The notes beneath the pieces were generated by a model. That model did not search any database. It was not told where the DNA came from and worked only from the letters and a program-made list of their open reading frames with translations. A stretch of 15,097 nt of DNA, from positions 1 through 15,097 of the forward strand of contig JACQVL010000349.1 in the NCBI GenBank assembly GCA_016209865.1, read 5' to 3'. The position numbers were made by a program, and so were the translations under genes. Shown in pieces: positions 986 to 9,129 of the stretch. The DNA comes from Candidatus Latescibacterota bacterium. Lineage in GTDB: Bacteria > JAAXHH01 > JACQVL01. Within the stretch, counting starts at the first letter, position 1; the number at the start of each line of letters is the position of its first letter.

Positions 986-2247
986 GCACCCCTACTGCGG
1001 TTGAACAACGCCGGCTCAAGTACGCGGCGACCATCAACGATGATGCCCTAGCCGAAGACACAGAACCCGACTACGAGCTTCAATATGTGGACATTGGGAA
1101 TGTCGATTCCTCCGGCAGTGTTCACGAGATCGCCACGTACCGCTTCGCAGACGCTCCGAGCCGAGCCCGAAGGCAAGTCCGTGATGGTGACGTCATTATC
1201 TCCACGGTTCGGACGTATCTTCAGGCCATCGCCCCGATACAGCAGCCCCCGGATAACCTAATTGTCTCCACGGGCTTTGCGGTGGTCCGCCCGCGGGCAA
1301 GCGTGTTCGATGCAGGTTTTTGCAAGTATGCACTGCGCGAGCCGGCCTTCCTCGCGGAAGTTGAGATGCGCTCAGTAGGCGTGAGCTACCCCGCGATCAA
1401 CGCTTCCGATCTCGGTGACATTCAGATCCACTTGCCAGGGCTACGACACCAGCGGGCAGTCGCGGACTATCTCGACCGGGAGACGGCGCGGCTGGATGCG
1501 CTCGTGGCGGCGAAGGAGCGGCTGTTGGGGCTGCTGGCGGAGAAGCGTCGGGCGCTCATCACCCGCGCCGTCACCCGCGGCCTCGCCCCTAACGTCCTCC
1601 TCCGCGACTCCGGCCTCTTGTGGCTCGGCCAGATTCCGGCGCATTGGGGTACATCAAAATTTTCATGGAGTGTTTCCATCGCCGAAGGTCAAGTCGATCC
1701 AGAAGTCGAGCCATACTTGAGCATGTTGTTGATTGCTCCGAATCACATTGAATCTGGTACGGGCAAGCTGATCAGCCGAGAGACTGCGGCCGTGCAAACA
1801 GCGATAAGCGGTAAGTACCTTTGCCAGGCAGGTGACGTCATCTACTCCAAAATCCGACCCGCGTTGAGAAAGGCAACGCTGGCACCCGGAGAGTGTTTGT
1901 GCAGTGCTGATATGTACCCGTTACGTCCCCGTCAGGGGCTTGATGCGGAATATCTCCTGTTTTTTCTCTTGTCCGAGCCTTTTTCTGTATGGGCAGTTTT
2001 GGAGTCAGATCGAGTCGCGATGCCGAAGATCAATCGTGAAACCCTGAATGATCTTCGCTTGCCCGTGCCGCCTCTGCAAGAGCAGAAGACAATCATCGCC
2101 TATATCGCAAGCGAGACAGCCAAGCTGGATGCCCTACGCGCAGTGACAGAGCGGACGATCGGGCTGCTGAAGGAGCGCCGCGCAGCCCTTATCGCTGCGG
2201 CTGTCGAGGGCAAGGGTGGACTCACTCATTCGGAGATGGCTTCATGA
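982..2247 (+). CDS. hsdS: Type I restriction-modification specificity subunit S
   Basis: HsdS sets the DNA target of the type I complex; each of its two target recognition domains (TRDs) reads one half of a bipartite site. The 421-residue protein has the expected layout: TRD1 at about 10-155, a helical conserved region at about 156-200 (RHQRAVADYLDRETARLDAL, then LLAEKRRALITRAV), TRD2 at about 210-365, and a second helical region at about 366-410 (QEQKTIIAYIASETAKLDAL, then LLKERRAALIAAAV). The two helical regions are internal repeats of each other, as in this family. Both TRDs keep the usual GDVI(I/Y)S motif (69-74 and 284-289) and end in a proline-rich LPxPPL-like turn. The GTG start at 982 overlaps the hsdM stop, and a GTG is the only sensible start because the TRD begins right after it. 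The stop overlaps the next gene's ATG (ATGA). DNA for TRD2 looks more AT-rich than DNA for the helical regions, suggesting module exchange. The target sequence cannot be read from the protein. Confidence 0.95.
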   Translation: MSTPTAVEQRRLKYAATINDDALAEDTEPDYELQYVDIGNVDSSGSVHEIATYRFADAPSRARRQVRDGDVIISTVRTYLQAIAPIQQPPDNLIVSTGFAVVRPRASVFDAGFCKYALREPAFLAEVEMRSVGVSYPAINASDLGDIQIHLPGLRHQRAVADYLDRETARLDALVAAKERLLGLLAEKRRALITRAVTRGLAPNVLLRDSGLLWLGQIPAHWGTSKFSWSVSIAEGQVDPEVEPYLSMLLIAPNHIESGTGKLISRETAAVQTAISGKYLCQAGDVIYSKIRPALRKATLAPGECLCSADMYPLRPRQGLDAEYLLFFLLSEPFSVWAVLESDRVAMPKINRETLNDLRLPVPPLQEQKTIIAYIASETAKLDALRAVTERTIGLLKERRAALIAAAVEGKGGLTHSEMAS

Positions 2248-3107
2248 GATACACAAGTCCGTTGCGGTACCCCGGTGGCAAGGCCGGTCTGACTGACTTC
2301 CTTTCTGACGTCATTGATCTGAACGATCTGCGGGGGTGCGTCTATTACGAACCCTACGCCGGCGGCGCGGGGGCAGCGTTGAGCCTTCTCAAGCAGGAGG
2401 TCGTCTCCGAATTCTACCTCAACGATGCCGACAGATGTGTGCATGCCTTCTGGCGCTCTGCGCTGCATGCGAGCGAGCACTTCGTGGAGCGCATCCGTAC
2501 CGTGTCGCTGACGATTGAGGAATGGCATCGCCAGCATGACATCTGCGCACGTCCGGGGTCGCATGCCGAGTTTGATGTGGGCTTCGCCACCTTCTTCATG
2601 AACCGCTGCAACCGCTCCGGGGTTCTGACCGGCTCGGGTCCTATTGGCGGCTATGAGCAAGCGGGCAAGTGGCGCATAGATGTGCGGTTCAACCGTGATG
2701 CGTTGGCGGAACGTATTCTGACCCTCTCACGCATGAAGAACCGTATCCATGTGTCGTGCGAGGATGCCATTGACTTCTTGAAGAGCAACCTGCCGCGTGG
2801 CCGTGGGCGTGAGCGAGTCTTCGTCTACCTGGACCCGCCCTACGTCAACAACGGGCAGCGCCTCTATCTGAACGCCTACAAGCCCGATGACCATGCCCAG
2901 TTGGCGCAGTACCTGGACGCACAGAACGTGCTTCCGTGGGTCATGTCCTACGACGACAGCGAGCTGGTGCATGAGTTGTACGCCGGGCACAAGATCGCCC
3001 TGATGCCGATCCGCTATACGCTTCAGAAGAAGCGTTCCACAAGGGAGTTGATCATCGCTCCGCATCACCTGTTTGTGCCCGCAGGCATGCCGTGTTCATG
3101 GCCATGA
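2244..3107 (+). CDS. D12-class (Dam-like) DNA N6-adenine methyltransferase
   Basis: The predicted activity is transfer of a methyl group from SAM to N6 of adenine in DNA. The 287-residue protein has the D12/Dam order of motifs: RYPGGK at 8-13 and EPYAGGAG at 36-43 (SAM binding, motif I), LNDAD at 59-63, FFMNRCNRSG at 117-126 (the conserved Asn-Arg block of this class), and the catalytic DPPY at 197-200 followed by VNNG. Length is normal for the family. The ATG overlaps the hsdS stop by 4 bases (ATGA), so it belongs to the same transcript and is probably translationally coupled. A second, self-contained adenine methylase is not part of a standard type I complex, whose methylase is HsdM. It may protect against the nuclease-like protein two genes downstream, or modify DNA as part of a separate module. 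Orphan regulatory Dam is a less likely reading, given the operon position. The recognition site is unknown. Family confidence is high; role is inference. Confidence 0.9.
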   Translation: MRYTSPLRYPGGKAGLTDFLSDVIDLNDLRGCVYYEPYAGGAGAALSLLKQEVVSEFYLNDADRCVHAFWRSALHASEHFVERIRTVSLTIEEWHRQHDICARPGSHAEFDVGFATFFMNRCNRSGVLTGSGPIGGYEQAGKWRIDVRFNRDALAERILTLSRMKNRIHVSCEDAIDFLKSNLPRGRGRERVFVYLDPPYVNNGQRLYLNAYKPDDHAQLAQYLDAQNVLPWVMSYDDSELVHELYAGHKIALMPIRYTLQKKRSTRELIIAPHHLFVPAGMPCSWP

Positions 3108-3146
3108 GAGTCTTCTGCAGGCCACCCATCATGAAGGGACGTCGCC

Positions 3147-4250
3147 ATGACGACCACACAGGAAACGACGGCACTCCCCGTGGAGAACCTCCATTTCGAC
3201 CGGGCCAATCCCCGCTTGGCCGAGTATGGTATCTCGGATCAATCGACCGATGAGGAGATTCTTGCCATCCTCTGGAATACAATGGATGTCCGAGAGTTGG
3301 TCCAATCCATCGCGGCCAGCGGCTTCTTCCCGCACGAGGCGCTCATCGTCACCCGCGAGAACAACAAGAATATCGTCATCGAAGGCAACCGCCGCCTCGC
3401 GGCGGTCATGGTGCTGCTCGACGATCAGGTCGCGAAGAAGAACGGATGGGAAGTTCCGACGCTTTCTGCGGATGCACGCAAGCAACTGGAAAGCCTCCCC
3501 GTGATCATCTCGGATCGTCAGAAATTCTGGCGCTATCTCGGCTTCAAGCACGTCAATGGACCGGCGAAGTGGAGCAGTTACGCCAAGGCGGAATACATTG
3601 CCAATGTCCATCGTTCCTACCACATCCCCCTGACGGACATCGCCAATCAGATTGGCGACCGGCATCGCACCGTGCAACGCCTCTACCGTGGCCTGATGGT
3701 CATTGAGCAGGCCGAGCGTGAGAAGGTCTATGATCGTGAGGACAGGTTCCGGCAGCGGTTCGCTTTCTCTCATCTCTACACTGGCCTCGATTACGACGGC
3801 GTCAGCTCATTCATCAGTCTCAAGGCCGAGGACGAGGAGACCAAGGATCCCGTCCCTAAGGAGAAGGTGAAGGAACTCGGTGAACTGTGCGTGTGGCTGT
3901 ATGGCAGCAAGAAGGACAATCGCCCTCCAGTCGTCGAGTCGCAGAATCCCGACCTCAGACGCCTCAATGACGCCCTGAGCAGCCGGGAGGCAATAGCCGC
4001 CCTACGGGCCGGGACGGAACTCGCTAAGGCATTCGAGATCAGCCGACCTCCCAAAGCCGTGTTCGAGGAGGCGCTTCTGGCGGCCAAACGTGAGCTGACG
4101 ACCGTCCGGGCATACCTGACGACTGGCTACGACATGTCGGAAGCGCTCCTGAGGATCGCCGGAACCATCGCCGTTATGGCTGACGACATATACACCGAGC
4201 TGGAGCGTAAACAGAATCCCGAGAAGAAGACGCGTCTGACGGAGGAGTGA
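3147..4250 (+). CDS. ParB/Srx-like domain protein within the restriction locus
   Basis: This 367-residue protein has a ParB N-terminal-like region at about 10-125. The key visible element is VIEGNRRLAAVMVL at 77-90, which matches the position and form of the ParB GERR/ENRR box that binds and hydrolyses nucleotide in CTPase members. It is preceded by NPR at 21-23 and by VRELVQSIAASGFFPHEALIV at about 48-68, the usual lead-in of the fold. A helix-turn-helix-like stretch follows at about 160-182 (LTDIANQIGDRHRTVQRL), suggesting DNA binding. The C-terminal third is helical and charged with no family I recognise. The ATG has a good ribosome binding site (AAGGGA, 7 bases upstream). Its stop lies 1 base from the next gene's GTG, so the two are a coupled pair. 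A chromosome or plasmid partitioning ParB is unlikely, as there is no parA. ParB-like proteins occur in defence loci, for example DndB as a regulator, but an equivalent role here is inference. Confidence 0.8.
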   Translation: MTTTQETTALPVENLHFDRANPRLAEYGISDQSTDEEILAILWNTMDVRELVQSIAASGFFPHEALIVTRENNKNIVIEGNRRLAAVMVLLDDQVAKKNGWEVPTLSADARKQLESLPVIISDRQKFWRYLGFKHVNGPAKWSSYAKAEYIANVHRSYHIPLTDIANQIGDRHRTVQRLYRGLMVIEQAEREKVYDREDRFRQRFAFSHLYTGLDYDGVSSFISLKAEDEETKDPVPKEKVKELGELCVWLYGSKKDNRPPVVESQNPDLRRLNDALSSREAIAALRAGTELAKAFEISRPPKAVFEEALLAAKRELTTVRAYLTTGYDMSEALLRIAGTIAVMADDIYTELERKQNPEKKTRLTEE

Positions 4251-4251
4251 G

Positions 4252-5172
4252 GTGTACAAGCTACCTGGTTTTCCGTCACCGAAGGCGGCCACACATGAGA
4301 TAGCGGATTTTGCAGAGGTCTTGTCCTGGGATCGCGGATTGGCGTCGAAGCGCGAGATCGTCGCCGATCTCGGTCGGGGCGACGAGAATGCTAACAATAT
4401 CGGCTGTGACGACGATGATGACGAGAACTCCGAGTTCCTCGACGAGGTGATGAACGAGATTGAGCGTCGTGCGTCGGCATGCGGTAGCGGCTATCCCTTT
4501 CGGCTCGATCTCGAAGGGACGGTCCTTCGACACGACGCGGACAGGGACGACCATCGAGCGGTCGTGTACCGCTATCTGCTGCTGAGTACGCGGCTCGACA
4601 TGGTGGACAACCGTGTCCACGCCGGAGTTGACGGAGCGGCCCTGCTCGAAGAAGTCGCCGCGCACGCACTGAAGAACTACCTTGGAGGCGGACGGACCCA
4701 CGCTCGGGTCTTCGGGACTGCGGCGCCCGGTGGCTTTCAAGACAAAGTCGATGCGTTGTGCCGCGAACTGCGAGAGGGCACCGGGTTCCGGAGTCCAGAC
4801 GATGCTCACACGCATGCGAAGGACGACAAGCTCGATGCGGTAGCCTGGGTGCCGTTTTCGGATTCCTTCCCCGGTCAGTTGATCGTCTTCGCACAATGCA
4901 AAACAGGGACGAATTGGCGCGACACGGTGACCCAGCTTCAACCGGACGCCTTTATCAAGAAGTGGATGAAGGACCCCGTCCTCGTCGATCCCATCCGGGC
5001 ATTCTGCATTTCCGAAGCGGCAGACCGTTCCCGATGGAAGGAAATGTGCACGGAGGCTGGGATACTGCTGGACCGATGCCGTCTGGTCGACTTCTGCGAC
5101 AACCTTGCCCCGGATTTGCTGGACAGGGTCAGCCGCTGGACGACCGTCGCGAAGGAAACCGTCACCCATTAG
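4252..5172 (+). CDS. Putative PD-(D/E)XK-type nuclease (uncharacterised)
   Basis: I do not recognise a named family. The 306-residue product has, in its second half, the order of residues expected for a PD-(D/E)XK nuclease core: Glu133/Glu134 in a helix (ALLEEVAAHALKNYL), Asp195 in a strand (KLDAVAWV), and Gln215-Cys-Lys217 in the next strand (LIVFAQCKTG). The D...QxK form is known from Mrr-like restriction enzymes. The N-terminal half holds an acidic run (DDDDDE, 53-58) and helices without a recognisable domain. No helicase, ATPase or membrane segment is present. The start is GTG at 4252, one base after the stop of the ParB-like gene; no independent ribosome binding site stands out beyond the GGAGG-like end of that gene, so coupled translation is likely. 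If active, the enzyme could cleave DNA that lacks the modification made by the adjacent methylase. The nuclease call rests on motif reading only. Confidence 0.65.
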   Translation: MYKLPGFPSPKAATHEIADFAEVLSWDRGLASKREIVADLGRGDENANNIGCDDDDDENSEFLDEVMNEIERRASACGSGYPFRLDLEGTVLRHDADRDDHRAVVYRYLLLSTRLDMVDNRVHAGVDGAALLEEVAAHALKNYLGGGRTHARVFGTAAPGGFQDKVDALCRELREGTGFRSPDDAHTHAKDDKLDAVAWVPFSDSFPGQLIVFAQCKTGTNWRDTVTQLQPDAFIKKWMKDPVLVDPIRAFCISEAADRSRWKEMCTEAGILLDRCRLVDFCDNLAPDLLDRVSRWTTVAKETVTH

Positions 5173-5201: not shown

Positions 5202-8200
5202 ATGGGCGCGAACTACAAGGAGGTCTCCTTCGAGACCGTCATCGAAGCCCACCTCCTTCAGAACGGCTACACGCCCGTCGCACGCGAGGGCTTCGACCGC
5301 GAGCGGGCGATCTTCCCCGAAGCGGTGCTCGCCTTCATCCGCGAAACCCAACCTCACGAGTGGGCCAAACTGGAGGCGTTGCACGGGGAGCGCACTGGCG
5401 AGCAGGTCATCGGCGACCTGTGCAAATGGATGGACACGTATGGCTCGTTGGCCACGCTGCGGCACGGGTTCAAGTGCTACGGCCGGCCCTTACACGTGGC
5501 CTTCTTCAAGGCGGCGCATGAGCTGAACCCGGAGCTTGAGTCCCGCTACGCGGCCAACCGGGTCGGCATCACGCGGCAATTGCACTTCTCGCCACGCTCG
5601 GAGAAGTCGCTCGACGTCACGATCAGCCTGAATGGCATCCCCATCGTCACGGCGGAACTGAAGAACCCCCTGACGGGCCAGACGGTGGAGCACGCGCTCC
5701 GGCAATACCGTCAGGACCGTGACCCGCGCGAGGTCATCTTCGAGTTCAAACGGCGGACGCTGGTGCATTTCGCGGTAGACACTGAGGCGGTGTTCATGAC
5801 CACACGGCTGGCCGGCACGGCGACCCATTTCCTGCCGTTCAACCGGGGCTTCGATGGCGGCGCGGGGAATCCGCCCGACCCGGCAGGGCGGACCTACCGG
5901 ACGGCCTACCTGTGGGAAGAGGTGTTGCAGCGTGATAGCCTGCTTGACCTGCTGGCGCGGTTCCTTCACCTGCAAACCGAGGAGAAGCGTACAGAAGAAG
6001 GATGGAAGGTAAAGAAGGAGACGATGGTCTTCCCGCGTTATCACCAGCTTCAGGCGGTGCGCTCGCTGGTGGAATCTGCCCGTCGGGAGGGTGTGGGGAA
6101 CAATTACCTCGTCGAGCACTCGGCGGGCAGCGGCAAGAGTAATACTATCGGTTGGCTGGCGCACCGGCTGGCATCATTGCACGACGCGCAGAACCATCGG
6201 GTGTTCGATAGCGTGATCGTGGTGACGGATCGCGTGGTGCTCGATCAGCAGTTGCAGGATACGATTTACCAGTTCGAGCACAAGCACGGCGTCGTGCAGA
6301 AGATCGACGAAAGCTCGCGTCAATTGGCGGAGGCGCTGGAGAACGCAGTCCCGGTGATCATCACCACGATGCAGAAGTTCCCGTTTGTCTCGCGGCATTT
6401 GCTCAAGATGGCTGAGGAGCGAGGCGCAAGCAGTACCGGTACACTCGTGACGCGACGATGTGCGGTGATCATCGACGAGGCGCACAGCTCGCAAGGGGGA
6501 GAAACCGCGACCGACCTCAAGGAAGTGCTGGGCGGCGAGGGGTTGAAGCAGGAGGCGCAACGGCGGGCCACCGAAGAGGGCCTGGACAACATGGAGGAAC
6601 TCTTCCGCAGCATGGCCAAGCGCGGGCGGCAGGCGAACCTCAGCTTCTTCGCCTTCACCGCCACCCCGAAGCACAAGACGCTGGCAGTCTTCGGGCGGAA
6701 CGGTGATCCATTCCACCGTTACACGATGCGGCAGGCTATCGAGGAGGACTTTATCCTCGACGTGCTGAAGCACTACACGACTTACGCGACCTACTTTAAG
6801 CTGCTCAAGGCGTGCGAAGACGATCCTCACGTCGAACGCAAAAAGGCCGCGAAGGCGCTGGCACGCTTTCTTAAACTCCATCCACACAACATCGCGCAGA
6901 AGACCGAGGTGATGGTGGAGCATTTTCATGCCGTCACCCGTCACAAGATCGGGGGGCACGCCAAGGGGATGGTCGTGACCGGTTCGCGGCTGGAAGCGGT
7001 GCGCTACAAGCAGAGCTTCGACCGCTATATCAAAGAGAAGGGGTATCCCATCAAATCCTTAGTGGCCTTCTCCGGTATCGTACAGGACGACAAAATCCCG
7101 GACGTCAGTTACACCGAAGAGAAGATGAATGACGGCATCAGGGAGAAGGAATTGCCGGAGAAGTTCGCGACCGTAGAGTACCAGGTGCTCTTAGTCGCAG
7201 AGAAGTATCAGACGGGGTTCGACCAACCACTCCTCCATACGATGTATGTGGACAAGCGACTGGCCGGCATCCAGGCCGTGCAAACGCTCTCACGTCTCAA
7301 TCGGACGCATCCGCTCAAGGAAGACACGTTCGTCCTCGATTTTGTGAACGATCGAGAGGAGATCCGCGAGGCGTTCAAGGCCTACTATGAAGGCGCCAAG
7401 ATGGGCGAGGAAGTAGACCCGGCGCGCCTGTATCAGCTCAAGGCCGAGTTGGACGCATCGGGTATCTATCTTGCTGAGGAAGTGCAACGGTTCTGCGAGG
7501 TGTATTTCAAGCCCAAGCACCATCAGAGCGCGGCAGACCATCAGGCGATGAATGCGGCTTTGGACCCGGCTGTCGCACGGTTCACCGTCACCCAGCAGCA
7601 GGACGAAGACGAGGCAGAGCTCTGGCGCGGCAAGCTGCAGTCGCTTCGCAATCTCTACGGCTTTCTCAGCCAGATCATTCCCTATCAGGATTCCGACCTC
7701 GAAAAACTCTACGTCTTTCTGCGCCATCTCGGCGCCAAACTGCCGCGACGACGGAGCGGATTGGCGTACCAGTTCGACGACGAGGTGCGGCTGGACTATT
7801 ACCGTCTCCAGAAAATCAACGAAGGCTCCATCAGCCTGAAAGAAGGCACAGCCCGTACGCTGGATGGTCCCACCGAAGTGGGCAGCGGCATGGTGCGCGA
7901 GGAGTCGGTCGCGCTGTCGCGTCTGATTGACATCGTGAACGAGCGATTCGGGACGGACTTCAACCAGGCCGACCAACTCTTCTTCGATCAAATCATCGAA
8001 GCTGCGATGACTGACCAGACGCTCAGGCAGGCGGCAGTGGTGAATCCCGGTGACAAGTTTGCGCTGGTGTTCAAGAACTTGTTGGAGATGATGTTCGTGG
8101 AGCGCATGGACCAGAATGAAGAGATCTTCGTTCGATTCATGAACGATACGGCGTTCCAAAAGGTCGTCACGGCTTGGCTGGCTTCCGAAGCGTACCAGAG

Positions 8201-8237
8201 GCTCCGATGCGAGGCCACCGCTGAGCTGAGCCGTTAG
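5202..8237 (+). CDS. hsdR: Type I restriction endonuclease and translocase subunit R
   Basis: HsdR is the ATP-driven motor and nuclease of the type I complex. It pulls in unmodified DNA and cuts it far from the target. The 1011-residue product is of normal length. The nuclease domain carries Asp138 (KSLDVTISL) and the Glu-Leu-Lys triplet at 152-154 (VTAELKNP). The helicase follows: an FPRYHQLQAV box at 277-286, Walker A SAGSGKS at 307-313, DEAH at 425-428, FFAFTATPK at 482-490, EKYQTGFDQP at about 667 and QTLSRLNR at about 694. The C-terminal helical domain, which docks on the methylase, fills the rest. I chose ATG 5202 because AGGAAGAAGGGAAAGG lies just upstream and the product then starts at the usual N-terminus; the frame stays open much further upstream, but that stretch lies over the nuclease-like gene. 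No frameshift or broken motif is visible, so the system looks intact. Confidence 0.96.
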   Translation: MGANYKEVSFETVIEAHLLQNGYTPVAREGFDRERAIFPEAVLAFIRETQPHEWAKLEALHGERTGEQVIGDLCKWMDTYGSLATLRHGFKCYGRPLHVAFFKAAHELNPELESRYAANRVGITRQLHFSPRSEKSLDVTISLNGIPIVTAELKNPLTGQTVEHALRQYRQDRDPREVIFEFKRRTLVHFAVDTEAVFMTTRLAGTATHFLPFNRGFDGGAGNPPDPAGRTYRTAYLWEEVLQRDSLLDLLARFLHLQTEEKRTEEGWKVKKETMVFPRYHQLQAVRSLVESARREGVGNNYLVEHSAGSGKSNTIGWLAHRLASLHDAQNHRVFDSVIVVTDRVVLDQQLQDTIYQFEHKHGVVQKIDESSRQLAEALENAVPVIITTMQKFPFVSRHLLKMAEERGASSTGTLVTRRCAVIIDEAHSSQGGETATDLKEVLGGEGLKQEAQRRATEEGLDNMEELFRSMAKRGRQANLSFFAFTATPKHKTLAVFGRNGDPFHRYTMRQAIEEDFILDVLKHYTTYATYFKLLKACEDDPHVERKKAAKALARFLKLHPHNIAQKTEVMVEHFHAVTRHKIGGHAKGMVVTGSRLEAVRYKQSFDRYIKEKGYPIKSLVAFSGIVQDDKIPDVSYTEEKMNDGIREKELPEKFATVEYQVLLVAEKYQTGFDQPLLHTMYVDKRLAGIQAVQTLSRLNRTHPLKEDTFVLDFVNDREEIREAFKAYYEGAKMGEEVDPARLYQLKAELDASGIYLAEEVQRFCEVYFKPKHHQSAADHQAMNAALDPAVARFTVTQQQDEDEAELWRGKLQSLRNLYGFLSQIIPYQDSDLEKLYVFLRHLGAKLPRRRSGLAYQFDDEVRLDYYRLQKINEGSISLKEGTARTLDGPTEVGSGMVREESVALSRLIDIVNERFGTDFNQADQLFFDQIIEAAMTDQTLRQAAVVNPGDKFALVFKNLLEMMFVERMDQNEEIFVRFMNDTAFQKVVTAWLASEAYQRLRCEATAELSR

Positions 8238-8319: not shown

Positions 8320-9129
8320 ATGGATAGCACGATTCCGCGTCACATCCACAATACAATCGTAGCACGCCTGGATCACATTGAGGTTGAAGAAGACGTTAGG
8401 ATTTTTTTCGCGTGCGAATCAGGGAGCCGGGCATGGGGATTTCCGTCGACCGATAGTGATTACGATGTGCGGTTTCTCTCTATCCATCCACCAGAGTGGT
8501 ATCTGTCTGTCGACATGGAGCGGAAACGGGATGTCATCGAGCGTCCAATCAATGACCACCTGGATCTCAACGGCTGGGACCTGCGCAAGGCACTCTGGCT
8601 TTTACGTAAGTCGAACCCGCCATTATTGGAGTGGCTTGCTTCGCCCATCGTGTATCGAGAATACTCTGCTATTCCTCAGCGACTACGTGAACTAAAAGCC
8701 AGGTACTATTCGCCACGCGCCTGCGCATACCATTATCTGCACATGGCGAAGGGCAATTATCGAGAGTACCTGCATGGAGCCAGAGTGTGGCTGAAGAAGT
8801 ATCTGTATGTGCTGCGCCCTCTCCTGGCGATCGAATGGATTATCCGTGATCTGGGACCTGTCCCCATGGAATTCGAGCGTCTCATCGAGGCAGTTATTGA
8901 GGATCGGACGTTACGATGGGCCATCGATCAACTGCTGGAAGCAAAGAAAGCAGGCGATGAACTGGCCGTTGGACCACGTATCGACCCAATCAGTCTTTAT
9001 CTGGAAGAAGCCCTTCCGAGATTGGAATGCCTGATCTCAGATACGGAGGTACGTACCGCTCCGATTGACGAGTTGAATGCGGTATTCCGAGAGGGATTGA
9101 GGGAGATGTGGGATATGAAGAGAGCGTGA
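8320..9129 (+). CDS. RlaP/YcgL-like nucleotidyltransferase superfamily protein
   Basis: The 269-residue product matches the polymerase-beta-type nucleotidyltransferases of the RlaP group. Near the N-terminus it has the signature GSRAWG (35-40) followed by D45-S-D47-Y-D49-V, where the Asp pair binds the catalytic metals. HLDLNGWDLRKAL at about 84-96 and the NPPLLEWL block at about 108-115 are also typical of the group, as is the helical second half (YLHMAKGNYREYL; WLKKYLYVLRPLL). The presumed reaction is transfer of a nucleotide to an RNA, protein or small molecule; the substrate is unknown. RlaP proteins have been linked to RNA repair by genome context in some bacteria, but no RNA ligase lies next to this one. 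ATG 8320 has no clear ribosome binding site (AGGAA is 19 bases away), yet the next Met is at residue 66, past the active site, so it must be close to the true start. It reads away from hsdR and is not clearly in the same operon. Its base use looks less GC-rich than the flanks, suggesting transfer. Confidence 0.82.
   Translation: MDSTIPRHIHNTIVARLDHIEVEEDVRIFFACESGSRAWGFPSTDSDYDVRFLSIHPPEWYLSVDMERKRDVIERPINDHLDLNGWDLRKALWLLRKSNPPLLEWLASPIVYREYSAIPQRLRELKARYYSPRACAYHYLHMAKGNYREYLHGARVWLKKYLYVLRPLLAIEWIIRDLGPVPMEFERLIEAVIEDRTLRWAIDQLLEAKKAGDELAVGPRIDPISLYLEEALPRLECLISDTEVRTAPIDELNAVFREGLREMWDMKRA

Follow-up and report, generated by a model that had tools for sequence, protein, structure and literature searches.

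A methylase, a ParB-like protein and a putative nuclease recur together in what looks like an undescribed restriction-type defence system

The stretch of DNA analysed here (the window, 15,097 bases from a Candidatus Latescibacterota bacterium) belongs to a 3.75-Mb draft genome that is 83% complete. Within it, three genes lie between hsdS and hsdR of a type I restriction operon. The features of the locus are as follows.

5 to 985, + strand: hsdM, C-terminal half (PADLOC MTase_I, residues 1-325 against positions 333-660 of the 661-position model).
982 to 2247, + strand: hsdS, type I specificity subunit (Pfam PF01420; PADLOC Specificity_I).
2244 to 3107, + strand: D12-class N6-adenine DNA methyltransferase, the modification subunit, with an ATG start; closest to PD-Lambda-5_B.
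3147 to 4250, + strand: ParB/KorB/Noc-like protein with an ATG start; predicted NTP-binding (ParB-CTPase) and HTH domains and a helical C-terminal part.
4252 to 5172, + strand: putative PD-(D/E)XK endonuclease with a GTG start; N-terminal winged-helix-like part; D191, D195, Q215 and K217.
5202 to 8237, + strand: hsdR, type I restriction subunit, with an ATG start and HSDR_N, SWI2_SNF2 and T1R_D3 domains.

Both the list of open reading frames and the sequence place the trio, hsdS and hsdR on the + strand. The methylase gene overlaps hsdS by 4 bases and is followed by a 39-base gap to the ParB-like gene; a single base then separates the ParB-like gene from the third gene, and 29 bases separate the third gene from hsdR. 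These coordinates agree with the original prediction of three co-directional, tightly packed genes between hsdS and hsdR. That prediction also took hsdM, hsdS and hsdR to be intact. While hsdS and hsdR do look complete, hsdM is represented only by its C-terminal half, because base 1 of the window is also base 1 of the contig (C319) and the start of the gene lies outside it. Directly 3′ of hsdR, at positions 8320-9129 of the window, is an RlaP-type nucleotidyltransferase of the RNA repair pathway (Pfam PF10127, 2.3e-89).

The methylase matches Pfam MethyltransfD12 (PF02086, 2.2e-12) and carries DPPY and EPYAGGAG motifs. Its best PADLOC model is PD-Lambda-5_B (PDLC04018), matched over the full length of the protein (335 bits, residues 1-279), followed by a type II methylase model at 250 bits.

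The ParB-like protein has only sub-threshold matches to GmrSD_N and parB in Pfam, also falls below NCBIfam cut-offs, and resembles PADLOC PD-Lambda-5_A over its N-terminal third only (69 bits, positions 13-175 of 473 in the model). Its AlphaFold2 model (pLDDT 93.7) matches KorB (8qa9) with a Z score of 10.3 over 201 residues and Noc (7nfu) with 9.6 over 198, and the protein shares 29% identity over 80 residues with the CTP-binding domain of Myxococcus xanthus ParB (7bnk). From these matches, the model contains both a nucleotide-binding domain and a DNA-binding HTH domain, and we predict a ParB/KorB/Noc-type NTP-switch fold joined to a DNA-binding domain. At the position of ParB Box II, the motif EGNRR is invariant in all 83 sequences compared. 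The protein is therefore like the ParB, KorB and Noc switches in its predicted N-domain and HTH fold and in its conserved Box-II-like GNRR, but unlike them in its partners, which are a methylase and a nuclease. It is probably a DNA-sensing, nucleotide-gated switch, with the caveat that a 2025 survey found no NTP binding in 17 of 28 ParB-fold proteins (PMC12704722), so that gating should not be assumed from the fold.

Two families suggested by partial similarity can be set aside. Membership of the type IV GmrSD systems is contradicted by a GmrSD_N (DUF262) score of 14.3 bits against a cut-off of 33.2, and by EGNRR in place of DGQQR. Membership of PDC-M38 was likewise rejected, as the ParB-like protein covers only positions 57-336 of the 715-position A protein. 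PDC-M38A itself (PDLC04607) is a candidate defence protein with a ParB-like N-terminal half. Searches with it mostly returned matches to its unrelated C-terminal half, which resembles proteins of about 380 residues found in most genomes.

The third protein belongs to no family in Pfam, PADLOC or NCBIfam and has no sequence match in the PDB; in PHROGs it corresponds to families 14650/3984, both without functional annotation. Its AlphaFold2 model (pLDDT 94.0) is most similar to MspJI (Z 6.9), FokI (6.2), N.BspD6I (6.2), AspBHI (5.4), EcoT38I (5.2) and NgoMIV (5.2), with NucC and Can2 next, so that restriction-type nucleases make up most of the top matches. Residues 11-96, approximately, are winged-helix-like by structural match. 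The scores are moderate (Z 5-7, below 8), making the PD-(D/E)XK fold likely rather than proven, and the protein is likely to be an endonuclease of this kind. An E...D...QxK motif had been proposed for it. The D...QxK part holds up and is conserved (D191 and D195 in 99/99 sequences, Q215 in 97/99, K217 in 54/99) and corresponds to the Mrr-like variant of the PD-(D/E)XK site (PMC4926085). The upstream glutamate fared less well, occurring in 34 of 99 sequences at its likeliest position. Among the 45 sequences that lack K217, a lysine is found 8 to 12 residues past Q215 in 44, bringing to 98 of 99 those with a lysine at one of the two positions. Catalytic lysines are known to migrate in the PD-(D/E)XK fold, and we infer from the alignment that this has happened in the relatives without K217.

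Relatives were gathered with the ParB-like protein, which was the productive query. It retrieved plasmid relatives, whose alignment was then used to collect the best 80 bacterial-genome loci and the best 80 viral-contig loci; the sample comprises best-scoring matches only, retrieved using one or two peptide patterns. The relatives are up to 82% identical to the query and span more than 12 phyla. Across bacterial genomes, plasmids and prophages, iterated profiles show the third gene immediately behind the ParB-like gene in 160 of the 164 relatives that could be assessed, a count that includes a few near-duplicate loci. Of 165 relatives, 150 have a DNA methylase gene no more than 2.5 kb away. 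The retention of the pair rules out a chance insertion, and the trio is a genuine, widespread module, recurring as a unit both with and without type I genes. The nuclease used as sole query found no plasmid or viral match and was present in only one of 142 other genomes around the host; this poor yield is explained by the rapid divergence of the nuclease.

Many of the copies lie in P2-like prophages, between the portal and replication genes (the P2 Q-A hotspot), an interval that is the hotspot treated in PMC9122126. Named phages with copies include Wphi (gp98-gp96-mth), Peduovirus 12474III and Pseudomonas phage D14A, in whose records the proteins are annotated as hypothetical or as ParB-domain proteins beside a methylase. 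No description of the three-gene unit was found in the text of the published papers searched, which included the 2025 ParB-fold survey (PMC12704722). The trio looks like an undescribed restriction-type defence that uses a chromosome-segregation-type protein as its sensor. On a Neorhizobium plasmid (L006, 1638-11042), the ParB-like/nuclease pair follows a cluster of cytosine-methylase, DUF262, Z1-domain and DUF4420 genes, which may be another modification-type locus hosting the pair.

The identity of the methylase varies. Nearby methylases belong to three unrelated families: D12 in 87 loci, C5 (PF00145) in 39, a total that comes from a later C5 search, and N6/N4 (PF01555) in 24. Several of the 15 loci with no visible methylase are at contig ends. 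Members of the window's clade carry a co-directional D12 gene upstream of the pair; prophage copies often have a convergent methylase on the downstream side. On the tree of ParB-like proteins, the methylase family changes about 8 times, some C5 labels in this count being assigned by position, compared with 23 times when labels are shuffled. This indicates that the methylase has been swapped on several occasions, although a given sensor lineage tends to stay with its own kind. Such a pattern, exchangeable yet coupled to the sensor lineage, is expected if the methylase supplies protection.

The closest characterised relative is PD-lambda-5, a proven anti-phage system (Vassallo et al. 2022, PMC9519451). 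For comparison, we used two full PD-lambda-5_A proteins (L173 and L174). Their N-terminal half, comprising the N-domain and HTH, aligns with the family of the window's ParB-like protein at 99.7% hhalign probability (E 2e-26, 222 columns), and the D12 methylase beside one of them is 38% identical to the window methylase over 281 residues. The two systems therefore share a homologous ParB-like N-domain and HTH and a D12 methylase of the PD-Lambda-5_B family. They differ in that PD-lambda-5_A has an unrelated C-terminal domain of its own, whereas the trio has a separate nuclease gene, and in gene order, which is A-B in PD-lambda-5 and methylase-ParB-nuclease in the trio. The idea that the nuclease is a split-off C-terminal part of PD-lambda-5_A was rejected, the two being unrelated (probability 0.3%). 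With a shared sensor and methylase and a different effector, the trio is best described as a sister system of PD-lambda-5 and was not counted among its members, since it lacks the C-terminal domain, one defining feature. In Vibrio phage ValB1MD-2 (L172, 3132-5571), PD-lambda-5 itself occupies three genes, A being seemingly split into a ParB-like protein and a C-terminal part, followed by the D12 methylase.

We propose that the trio is a stand-alone, mobile restriction-modification (RM)-like system whose ParB-type switch links unmethylated DNA with a separate nuclease, and give this reading a probability of about 0.62. It is built on computed features: gene order, recurrence, predicted folds, conserved catalytic and nucleotide-site residues, and exchange of methylase families. 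Host-site methylation, NTP gating, nuclease activation and defence are what we infer from them. In this scheme, the methylase would place its mark on a specific site in host DNA. The ParB-like protein would bind DNA through its HTH under nucleotide control, in the manner of KorB, Noc and ParB, and would serve as both sensor and loading platform for unmarked sites. There it would recruit or activate the PD-(D/E)XK-like nuclease, which would cut the unmarked, incoming DNA. A more specific version, in which a clamp gated by CTP (or another NTP) loads at unmethylated sites, spreads and licenses the nuclease, with methylases of three chemistries plugging into a widespread RM-like immunity, is offered tentatively. 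The second defence-like layer originally predicted for this locus, with its own modification, ParB switch and nuclease, gains support from recurrence and predicted folds.

The proposed system is like type II RM in that a methylase of its own adjoins an endonuclease-fold protein, in the window and in the 150 relatives with a nearby methylase. Unlike type II RM, it always includes a ParB/KorB-type third protein, draws on three interchangeable methylase families, and has a nuclease with no sequence relation to any Pfam, NCBIfam or PADLOC family. Phage Wphi, in its genes gp98-gp96-mth, has both core proteins (PHROG 3694 and 3984) next to a methylase in convergent orientation; there, however, the methylase is a C5 cytosine enzyme, and gp98 and gp96 are without function in the record.

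The position of the window copy invites a different explanation, in which the ParB-like protein and nuclease stay silent until a phage inhibits the type I enzyme or the methylase, and then attack the host or act indiscriminately, aborting the infection. The logic would be that of PrrC, a type I-linked anticodon nuclease with an ABC-type ATPase that depends on the type I enzyme. In favour of this, the trio lies in the hsdS-hsdR gap not only in the window but also in L013, L027, L029, L040 and L042, with the same 4-base overlap with the upstream gene in L013, L027 and L042, and PD-lambda-5, which has the same sensor and methylase, has been described as RM+Abi-like (PMC9519451). Yet about ten relatives adjoin type I genes (the labels of L009 and L034 resting on fragments), and the majority of copies have none. 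On the ParB-like tree, the minimum number of changes in the type I label is 5, or no fewer than 3 when judged by well-supported branches. The hsdR genes beside the trio are 84% identical to that of the window in L010 and L013, range from 84 to 63% across L010, L013, L025, L040 and L042 (a fragment), and are 44-46% identical in L027 and L029. Other members of the window's clade have housekeeping or mobile-element neighbours, and no type I family is among the 25 most frequent in a neighbour scan of these remaining members. In L029, a Fic-family gene (3898-5079) lies between hsdM and hsdS of the trio-bearing type I locus.

When relatives of hsdR were surveyed independently of the presence of the trio, the same gap was found to hold unrelated genes. 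In Ketogulonicigenium (hsdR 78% identical), it contains a Septu PtuA-PtuB pair; in other genomes, a GmrSD-like, Schlafen/AlbA or IrrE-like protein; in three genomes, it is empty; and L025 carries a tandem of Septu and the trio ahead of hsdR. The GmrSD-like cargo resembles NsnA/PD-T4-2_A, and examples of cargo are found in L200 (7048-8992), L025 (145-3073), L202, L204 and L206. In this type I family, the hsdS-hsdR gap is therefore a cargo slot, comparable to that of E. coli type I loci such as EPEC, where DarTG2 is the cargo (PMC12255303). The trio shares with DarTG2 and PrrC this position and a tight coupling to the operon, but consists of different genes and is mostly found outside type I operons. 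None of its three proteins matches a PrrC-like family, ATPase or anticodon nuclease in Pfam, PADLOC or NCBIfam. Such variable cargo makes the PrrC analogy less convincing and speaks for joint transport and expression. The predicted PrrC-like dependence on the type I enzyme is thus not supported, and a type I-specific partnership was rejected as a general rule. With an effector that resembles a restriction-type DNase and not the C-terminal domain of PD-lambda-5, the abortive explanation is unlikely. Under the RM-like reading, the window copy would occupy a slot used by many defence cassettes, probably sharing expression with the operon without sensing its enzyme.

A modification-dependent, type IV-like restriction, in which modified phage DNA is the target of the nuclease and the methylase serves another purpose, would fit the presence of modification-dependent MspJI and AspBHI among the nearest fold matches. 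It is very unlikely, however, as the match covers the catalytic domain only, and the methylase that accompanies most loci, in whichever of its three exchangeable families, would be superfluous for a type IV enzyme and would make self-cutting likely. Equally hard to credit is a role in maintaining mobile elements, by selfish stabilisation (methylase loss killing the cell) or as a plasmid or prophage partition or regulatory module with little antiviral function: many copies are on prophages and plasmids, and mobile elements often encode ParB folds (PMC12704722), but a place inside a restriction operon is characteristic of defence cargo (PMC12255303), the bacterial copies examined mostly have housekeeping genes or a mixture of genes as neighbours, and no ParA partner is seen among the neighbours annotated or scanned.

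The RM-like reading describes a defence family with interchangeable components, in which a single sensor is combined with two unrelated effectors (the PD-lambda-5 one and the nuclease of the trio) and with three unrelated methylases. Chromosome segregation is where ParB-type CTP switches first came to light. Which other biological settings use ParB-fold switches is a question raised by the 2025 survey (PMC12704722). The trio would be a concrete, widespread and phage-borne setting for such a switch, one whose cognate DNA signal may be read by methylome sequencing.
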